A DNA stretch of 39,756 bases from NCBI GenBank assembly GCA_947305505.1, contig CAMZDX010000006.1, positions 1 to 39,756 on the forward strand, in the 5' to 3' direction. Position numbers and translations under genes: made by a program. The notes below the pieces were generated by a model, which was given only the letters and a program-made list of their open reading frames with translations, had not been told where the DNA came from and did no database searches. Positions 22,402 through 30,185 of this stretch are shown here, piece by piece. This DNA is from an uncultured bacterium (GTDB taxonomy: Bacteria; UBP6; UBA1177). Each line of letters begins with the position of its first letter. The first letter of the stretch is position 1.

Positions 22402-25400
22402 ATGAGGAAGTTGTTTTCATTTTTTGCAGTGTTGACCGTTCTTCTTTTTATGCTTGCCTGCGGCGGCGGCGGCAAGGGTAAAGAAACAATTGAAACCGAC
22501 GAAGACACGACCGATGTCGAAATATCGGACAACGATTCCGACGGTGCCGAAATATCGGATTCTGATGATGATTCAGACGATATCGAAATATCGGATGAAG
22601 ATTCCGACAATCCCGAGGCGACCGAAAACCACCAGTTTTCCGGTGCATATCAGGTTGAAAGCAGCGTTTCGGGTGTTTCAGTTGCAATTGTCGAGTGCGG
22701 TAAAACTATAGAATTGGCTTCCGGCAAAACTGATGCAAGCGGAAAATTCTCGTTCAACGCCGACATTTCGGCAGATAAGACTTACTGCATCACGGCAAAC
22801 GGTTTTGCAAGCTGCTTCAAAGGCCTTAGCGACCACGTTGCAAATATTTCCGAAATCACGACTGCGGCTTATCTTGTTGACAAAACCTGTGAAAATATCC
22901 GCAAAAGCGAAACGAGAGTAAGAAATTACGCAAAACTCGGAACCGGAAAATGGCTCGGAGAGCTTGATTATTCCAGGCTTTCAGGCATAAAAACAGGACT
23001 TAAGCTTCTCTCTTCCTTCCTCAACACGACTGATCCAAAAACTCTTTCCGAAAAAATTGCCGATGACGTTCAGAAAACCGAAGGATATGACTTCGAAAAG
23101 TTTTTCAACGGCTTCAAAATTTCGTCCGACAAAAAAGAAGTTGTCATAAATACGGCAAATCCCGAGAGCAACGAAGTTTCCCTCAATATCGAGGGCGGAA
23201 GCGACGTTGTTGCCGAAGGTTTCAAAATCGTCTGGACTGCGCTGAATAAAACTGCTGAAGCTGCTACGCACAAAATCAAAAGCACGGAGCCCGGCGAATA
23301 CACTGTCAGGTCTAAACTCGTTGACGACGGCGGCGACCCGATAATGATTTCCGAAGATTCCTCCACTATCCTTTTCCTTCTTGAAAAAATCAGCGGAACA
23401 ATCGATGTCAGCGACATGAGCAAACATATTTCGCACTACATCGATAACGGAATTTACGCAGTCATTCCGAAAAATACCGTCATCACAAAGGACGGAAACA
23501 AAGTGAACACCCTCACCTACACGATCATGATGACAGGCGACGGCTCGCAGATTTCAAGAATAGACTTCGGGCCGGAGGGAACCACTTTCACGGGAGACGC
23601 ACTCTATTTCGTCTATGAACTGGGAACAGTTTTCGGCGGCGATCCCATCATGCTTTCCGCTACAAGGTCGAACAGTGACGATACAAGCGATGTCATGCAG
23701 TCTGCGGGCGGCGACCCGATCATGCTTGAAGCGGGCGGAGATCCGATAATGTTCTCGGCGGGAGGCGATCCCATCATGCAGATTGCACGTTCTGCGGGCG
23801 GCGATCCCATCATGCAGTCTGCCGGCGGAGACCCGATTATGAACGCAGCGGGCGGAGATCCCATCATGAATGCGGCCGGCGGAGATCCTATTATGACGAG
23901 TGCGGCCGGAGATCCCATCATGTCGACTGCTGCGGGCGATCCTATCATGCTCGGAACAAGTTCAAGCGTCATGGTTGCAAAGACTAATCACTTCTCCGGA
24001 TTCCAGCTCAATTCGACTTCACTTCCTGTTTCTGCGGCCGATCTGATTTCGAAATGGTGCGGAGACTACTATTATCAGAACTATTCTCCGGTCGAGTTCA
24101 TCAGACGCGGTATTGAAAAATTCAAACCTGCCGGCGACGATAAAACTGATCTTCTGAATTATTTCCAATGCCCCGCTTCCGGAGAGACACCTCTTTACGA
24201 GCTTGAAAGCGATCTTTACGAGCTTTTCAACAAGCCTCTCGGTTATCAGCGCAACATCAACCTTATTGAAAACCTCTACTATGTTTCGGAATTTTATAAC
24301 CGTATGCTTGCAAAGAAAGAAAACGGTGACGCTGTTGCGGCGGTCAAAAACGGTCTTGAATTAAGGTCTGCAATCGCGACCCTATTTACTTCTACCGATG
24401 CTTTCAACAGAAGCTCTACTCTGACAGGACTTTTTGATTCTTCGGATATTCCTCTGACTTACAGCGGCGTAACTCCCGCCGACTATTCAGCTGATGCGTT
24501 GTCTGCTCTAACCGGTCTTTCCGAATTGAACGACAAATATGCCGCGACGAAAAAAGAGGTCATGATTTTTGCAAACTACGTAATGACTTCTTCCAAAGGA
24601 CCTGATTTCAGCAGCGTTTCATCTGCTTTAACTCCAGACCAGTTCGTCTGTGCATGGTTCAACGGCACTGCCGCAGGCTGCAACAAAGTCTACACATTGA
24701 ATGAAAACGGCCGTGTCGCACTTAACGGTACTGCTGTTTCGCTTGCAGATGCGGAACAGATTTTCGCGAAATTCTTCATGCCGATGAACAGCAGACTTTC
24801 CGATGAAGAAAAACTAAATCTTTTCAGAACATACTACCTTGTTCTCAGATATGTCGGAACTATTTTCGGCAACAGTTCAAAAATTCAGGAACTCAACGAC
24901 AGGCTGCTTGAAACGGCTTACCTCGTTTTTGACGGCATCAACAAAAACAAAAATGCAGTCAGCATCGTCGACACTTTCGATGCTTCGGCTCACACGGTTT
25001 CTGTTCTTGCAGACGGAATCATGGAGACAAGGCCTTATCTCAACAAACTTTCGAACCTTACCGACAAAATTTCGCTCAATGCCGCGACTCCGGCAAATGT
25101 AGAGAAAGTTCTGATAAAAATCGAAGGCTATGCTCACGAAAAGGCTTCAGAAAACGGAGCTGTCTACTATAAACCGACCGGAAGTCTGAAAGAAAAATCT
25201 ATAATTCTCACTCCCGGTGCTCTTACAGCCGGGCTCAAACCGCTCAAAGAGCTCTTAGGTTCGGACAACGTTGACGAGCTCGGAGACATCACCGGAAAGA
25301 TGACTGTCGTCGTCAATTCGAAGATTTCCGGCAAACCCTATTCGACTCAGAAAACTTACGATTTCCTTATCTACAAAGAGAGTGCCGGTGTTGATTCCAA

Positions 25401-29357: not shown

Positions 29358-30185
29358 ATGAAGAAAGAAGAAATTGAAAATCTTTTTAACAGCTACGAAG
29401 AGGCAGTATGCAAAATCGAGGAAACCGAGTGCTGGAGCGCAAGAGACCTGCAAAAACTGTTCGGATACAGCCTTTGGCAGAACTTCTGCAAAGTGATTGA
29501 AAAAGCCAAAGAAGCTTGTCGGAACGTGTGTCAGCAAGTCTCAGACCATTTTATTGACGTCAATAAGATGGTCGTACTTGGTTCAGGCGCGGAAAGAGAA
29601 GTAGATGACATCATGCTCACACGTTACGCCTGTTATCTTGTGGCACAGAACGGTGATCCGAGAAAACCGCAGATAGCTTTCGCGCAAACATATTTCGCGG
29701 TGCAGACCCGCCGTGCCGAACTGATAGAACAGCGGCTGTTGGAAGTCGAGCGTGTCAGAGCCCGTGCAAAATTGCAGGAAACCGAGAAAAAACTTTCTGG
29801 AATACTTTATGAACGCGGCGTGAACGAACAGACTTTTGCCATAATCCGTTCAAAAGGCGATCAGGCGCTTTTCCGGCTCAGCACGAACATGATGAAACAG
29901 CGCATGGGCATACCGCAGGCGCGTCCGCTCGCCGATTTTCTGCCTACAATCAGCATTAAAGCCAAGGATTTTGCCGCCGAAATGACAAGCGTCAATGTGC
30001 AGGCAAAGGATCTGCAAGGAGAAAACGCAATCACTGAAGAACATGTCGAAAACAATGCAGCCGTCCGCAAAATGCTTATTGACCGCGGCATCATCCCCGA
30101 AGAACTTCCTCCGTCAGAAGATGTGAAAAAAGTGGAACGCCGTCTGGCGAAAGAAGAAAAAAAGCTGCTGAAAAACAAGGAATAA
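29358..30185 (+). CDS. dinD: DNA-damage-inducible protein D (BRO-N family)
   Basis: 275 residues, colinear with E. coli DinD (274). It shows the BRO-N-type start [19 protein letters not shown], the conserved [16 protein letters not shown] and the [16 protein letters not shown] helix. The C-terminal part ends [16 protein letters not shown], as in DinD. E. coli DinD belongs to the SOS regulon and inhibits RecA filament activities. Neither role can be read from this sequence. The ATG has TAGGAG 7 nt upstream. The stop codon directly abuts copy 2 of the giant-gene 3' end, so the gene looks inserted between two DUF1566 gene ends. Such genes are often found in phage and mobile contexts. Confidence 0.9.

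Follow-up and report, generated by a model that had tools for sequence, protein, structure and literature searches.

Arrays of an XGDPIM hexapeptide in ZU5-type lipoproteins from an uncultured, UBP6-related order of bacteria

Introduction

The HFS motif is the site of autoproteolysis in PIDD and Nup98; ZU5-like domains of animals break the bond in front of its serine through an N-O acyl shift (PMC3210808). Large surface proteins of bacteria are already known to contain ZU5 domains, and an autopeptidase function in toxins and surface proteins has been suggested for the bacterial domains (PMC3482391). Two other described systems share features with the repeat reported here. One is the autocleavage of VWD domains at a GDPH site, which is inhibited when His is replaced by Asn (PMC10880436); the other is the RTX family of nonapeptide calcium repeats, with the consensus GGxGxDxUx.

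In this study, we analysed a hexapeptide repeat, XGDPIM, that was noticed in a 39,756-nucleotide stretch of DNA from an uncultured bacterium (the window, by which we mean the whole stretch). An earlier note on this DNA, made from the letters alone, had described eleven units in one protein and had placed them in no known family. Indeed, no described repeat family matching XGDPIM was found in Pfam, NCBIfam, the PDB, or open papers. Profile hits to PGDYG and YdhT were under the cut-off and probably compositional, and the GGDPIM of the lectin OsJAC1 is a single copy that was attributed to chance.

Results

The carrier gene encodes a predicted surface lipoprotein of 2250 residues, P0001. Read directly from the translation, its lipoprotein start coincides with the start of the gene and its lipobox ends in FMLAC, with the Cys at residue 20. 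The protein continues, in order, with an Asp/Ser-rich linker, an Ig-like domain, a ZU5-like domain containing the array, a large middle part, and four C-terminal Lcl_C (DUF1566) domains, the last identified with Pfam. The low-complexity linker after the lipobox spans residues 30-75 (SDNDSDGAEISDSDDDSDD). The Lcl_C part belongs to a very large family; a search with the whole protein gave 108 matches in the window's genome, mostly to that part. The carrier gene is adjoined by a gene for a BRO-N domain protein. The N-terminal part of the carrier is present a second time in the genome, at 68% identity and with at least three GGDPIM units, in a copy cut by a contig end (G000:C7:2-910).

An exact search of P0001 for [GA]GDPIM returned the same eleven units that had been noticed before, nine GGDPIM and two AGDPIM, at coordinates that had been right within a few bases (Table 1). 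The DNA pattern for the unit matched 11 times in the window and not once in 100 shuffles; none of the eleven units is expected by chance. The arrangement described earlier was also confirmed, as unit 1 lies alone in the Ig-like domain and units 2-11 lie in a loop of the ZU5-like domain before its HFS strand, flanked by YFVYELGTVF on one side and TNHFSGF on the other. In fold comparisons, the Ig-like domain preceding the ZU5-like domain weakly matched proteins with tandem Ig/FnIII domains, in agreement with its former assignment. In an alignment of orthologues, the site of unit 1 held 0-8 copies, and this position is a second insertion site.

Table 1 Positions of the carrier gene, the repeat units, and neighbouring features in the window.
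Feature	Positions	Strand	Basis
Carrier gene, predicted surface lipoprotein P0001, 2250 aa	22402..29154	+	translation
Asp/Ser-rich low-complexity linker	about 22489-22626		
Unit 1, GGDPIM, Ig-like domain	23329..23346	+	
ZU5-like domain (limits approximate)	23398..24021	+	profile-profile match to ZU5 paralogue profile
Ten-copy tract, units 2-11	23635-23949		
Unit 2, GGDPIM	23635..23652	+	
Unit 3, GGDPIM	23707..23724	+	
Unit 4, GGDPIM	23734..23751	+	
Unit 5, GGDPIM	23761..23778	+	
Unit 6, GGDPIM	23797..23814	+	
Unit 7, GGDPIM	23824..23841	+	
Unit 8, GGDPIM	23851..23868	+	
Unit 9, GGDPIM	23878..23895	+	
Unit 10, AGDPIM	23905..23922	+	
Unit 11, AGDPIM	23932..23949	+	
TNHFSGF, end of ZU5 domain with HFS motif	23983..24003	+	
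BRO-N domain gene	29358-30185		

The usual carrier in the order is a lipoprotein in which ZU5 is the first domain after the lipidated Cys. Paralogues from the same genome and order scored over the curated cut-off for ZU5 (PF00791). The window domain had no Pfam ZU5 match, and its model had no Foldseek match under 0.001; when it was aligned with the ZU5 paralogue profile using hhalign, a match of 99.5% was obtained over the columns outside the array, where the domain is homologous to this ZU5 family. Furthermore, the model of another carrier (L117) matched the ankyrin ZU5 fold with E = 7.8e-6 and also UNC5b; its match to the BAI3 GAIN domain was weak. These results bear out the ZU5-like nature of the carrier that was proposed from the window.

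The array separates the Trp strand from the final ZU5 strand. Of 117 array proteins with a motif of the HF(S/T) type, 116 had H[FY][ST] after the last unit (HFS in 56, HFT in 49, and HYS in 11; the remaining protein had NFS), and in 89 the last unit stood exactly four residues before the H. By analogy with the animal domains, HF(S/T) is probably a self-cleavage site in the array carriers, which would be surface-exposed proteins with self-cleaving ZU5 domains.

A motif search for copy number and range revealed that the repeat is order-wide and multi-genic, with X varying by genome. The window's genome (1.63 Mb, 59% complete) contained 63 GDPIM copies in about eight genes, and arrays were present in 24 of 25 genomes of an uncultured order related to the candidate phylum UBP6, which excludes the possibility, considered earlier, that the motif occurs nowhere else even in close relatives. 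The same genus includes the records bacterium UBP6 UBA1177 and UBA1209; the other members of the order are MAGs from rumen, digester, and sediment, some of them deposited as Spirochaetales or Sumerlaeota. Several of the deposited names (Sumerlaeota, Spirochaetales, and others; records L085, L117, L067, L074, L090, and L128) are, or may be, at odds with placement in the order.

No array was found in 361 genomes outside the order, of which 3 belong to a sister family within the phylum and 358 are other genomes. A separate scan of GTDB genomes gave, among the matches listed, at least a few single-gene cases in apparent outsiders, a minimum for the occurrence of the repeat beyond the order. These cases are one gene each in records labelled Bacillota (L142), Bacteroidales (L090), and Acidobacteriota (L128), together with two short secreted proteins from spirochaete-labelled genomes of 1.3-1.4 Mb (L074:7351-7746 and L126:3628-3957). 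Both proteins consist largely of GDPIM units and strand-like joining stretches, and both end exactly in GDPIM followed by the stop codon. A scan of viral contigs found no exact array; phage and plasmid matches were weak, below 60% identity, and a phage or plasmid origin was rejected.

The codons of the window array are not the same from copy to copy, from which selection on the peptide had been proposed. The wider comparison agrees with this proposal. Within arrays, 894 exact GDPIM copies were counted against 9 with one mismatch, a count that favours good arrays because its loci were chosen by exact pairs. The codons of neighbouring units agreed at about 0.45-0.65 per position, little more than the codons of units that lie in separate genes within one genome, and in a background-corrected comparison codon identity modestly exceeded what these genes show as background. 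The peptide is thus under extreme selection, with codons close to shuffled. Because exact units dominate and codons are near background, the peptide has been kept while the DNA drifted, and the arrays are old; the slight excess of codon identity leaves room for a little homogenisation by recombination.

These data also bear on explanations at the DNA level, in which the repeat would promote recombination, supply internal start codons, or stem from a recent tandem duplication. Each unit ends with ATG, and GGAG-N8-ATG occurs in some copies. An explanation of this kind is nevertheless extremely improbable, since the codons of neighbours differ and are near background and GGA is not enriched (28% vs 31%); internal translation starts and tandem duplication were ruled out by the codon data.

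Arrays also occur in carriers other than ZU5. They interrupt a right-handed beta-helix (L159 and L111), an alpha-2-macroglobulin-like protein in its N-terminal part (L050), the dockerin/PKD protein L168, the FGE-sulfatase-type protein L146, and a secreted protein (L086 and L052). In these carriers, the first residue is the same as elsewhere in the genome: Q in the FGE-sulfatase-type protein, S in the dockerin protein, and A in the beta-helix.

One member of the same genus, G013, is 97% complete and has no arrays; the pattern GG[DN]P[IV]M had zero matches in it. In its single ZU5 lipoprotein (L211), an ordinary strand-turn replaces the array, and GHLG replaces GHF(S/T). This lipoprotein is a natural case of loss of both the array and HF(S/T), although G013 is one case and most of its carrier genes are also gone.

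The first residue of the unit differs between genomes (A, G, S, Q, L, or M). For example, it was Q in 25 of 25 units of JAGLDR, S in 17 of 17 of JAGOEX and 42 of 44 of CAJOFY, and L or M in JAGAAT; DBXP was mixed (G, M, L, and A). When genes were permuted among genomes, with orthology controlled incompletely, the observed value for X was 0.696 against a mean of 0.481 and a maximum of 0.536 in 2000 permutations. Within the genus, the genome effect was strong for X, with z = 10.7, and slight or missing at the four spacer positions, with z = -0.7, 3.0, 0.5, and 0.4. Both TCN and AGY codons are used for Ser in CAJOFY and JAGOEX. In the tree of the long protein, the Ser copy of CAJOFY is nested in an Ala clade, and JAGAAT has Leu in both paralogue groups, the orthologues having Gly or Ala. 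There is also a paralogue effect, as the long-protein group within one genome often has G and the rest A. X sharing was highest within an array, at 0.81 vs 0.63 within a genome. These results indicate that X is set partly by the gene and partly by the genome.

The spacing between units was 9 residues in 503 cases and 6 in 149. In AlphaFold models, pLDDT was about 25-33 for the window array and about 70-91 for the array of L117, which has a six-residue period. These features can be read as purely intramolecular: each unit would add a turn and a strand to the ZU5 sandwich, as a beta-meander or spiral, with the core fixed by the fold and X by packing between the units of one array. The start of the final ZU5 strand by the last unit (DSSP) and its usual distance from the H, the two prevailing spacings, the well-modelled array of L117, the highest sharing of X within an array, and the strand-turn sequence now found in G013 are all consistent with this reading. 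However, it leaves unexplained the genome effect that acts on X and not on the spacers within the genus, as well as the near-invariance of five residues in unrelated folds, and the window array is modelled with low pLDDT. We consider a purely intramolecular role unlikely, although it ranks next after the reading favoured below.

Discussion

We tentatively favour, at slightly less than an even chance, a reading in which XGDPIM serves recognition or assembly and is read in trans, either by a partner or by other arrays; a protein-docking array, one of the alternatives in the earlier note, fits the data best. The hexapeptide would be a portable element on surface-exposed lipoproteins, and the tract would hang where the lipid-anchored stub meets the C-terminal part, in the ZU5 loop leading to the HF(S/T) strand. 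The whole hexapeptide would be read by a receptor, a modifying enzyme, a protease, or other arrays. We infer that this reader allows hardly any change in the five core residues and tends to dictate X across the arrays of a genome. Because X also follows the paralogue, the influence of the genome is partial, and one strict reader need not be assumed. No partner gene was found beside the array genes, whose neighbours include no recurrent family, carrier fragments excepted.

The multi-copy arrays, their portability, and the matching of X across the proteins of a genome would also be accounted for by homotypic assembly, in which the arrays of different lipoproteins stack as a zipper, build a surface coat, and must match within the cell. 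Such assembly is likewise unlikely in our judgement, marginally more so than a purely intramolecular role. Gly- and Ala-type arrays occur together in most rumen genomes, and long cross-beta ladders would be disfavoured by a Pro in each unit.

A cell-surface peptide code, with the hexapeptide placed in many unrelated proteins, one drifting trans partner, a genome-wide dialect, and loss of the system in G013, is possible but doubtful. If the reader did drift, dozens of peptide copies per genome would be dragged along with its specificity. A near letter-perfect peptide in hundreds of copies and different folds, with codons near saturation and X tuned by genome, points strongly to a surface recognition or assembly system that has gone unrecognised in an uncultured lineage common in ruminants. 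The arrays make bacterial ZU5 self-cleavage, and the role of the tract before the scissile strand, directly testable, and the motif could be used to fish for the partner.

Among known systems, VWD autocleavage at GDPH shares with the unit the sequence Gly-Asp-Pro. An Asp-Pro bond in a GDP context is present in every unit, and a self-cleaving or acid-labile ladder had been suggested on this ground. The suggestion does not stand well: the His needed for GDPH cleavage is absent from all array units, no GDPH was found in the array proteins, scans of the window protein and of further carriers matched no VWD domain, and the known site is single and not an array. Acid lability, for its part, leaves the conservation of Ile and Met unexplained. 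Such a ladder is therefore very improbable.

RTX calcium repeats are similar in that nine residues is also the commonest period here and in their Gly-Asp-rich turn. They differ in that the arrays lack GGxGxDxUx, often have a six-residue period, and gave no significant match to RTX; membership was rejected, as neither the nonapeptide consensus nor a constant nine-residue period was found. A metal-binding tract using the Asp and Met side chains, one of each per unit, would be in line with the very weak resemblance to RTX repeats (best PDB match, E = 0.028). It would not require the invariant Gly, Pro, and Ile or the genome-tuned X, and the RTX differences in consensus and period also count against it. 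We regard metal binding as improbable.

A further close system is the ZU5/GAIN/Nup98 autoproteolytic superfamily (PF00791), including PIDD, CARD8, and bacterial autopeptidases. The carriers share with its members the Pfam score of the paralogues, the fold matches to ankyrin and UNC5b, and the conserved HF(S/T) at the turn between the two C-terminal strands. The carrier is a known domain and the array an undescribed insertion in it: the loop before the scissile strand holds 2-18 XGDPIM units, an arrangement undescribed for any ZU5.
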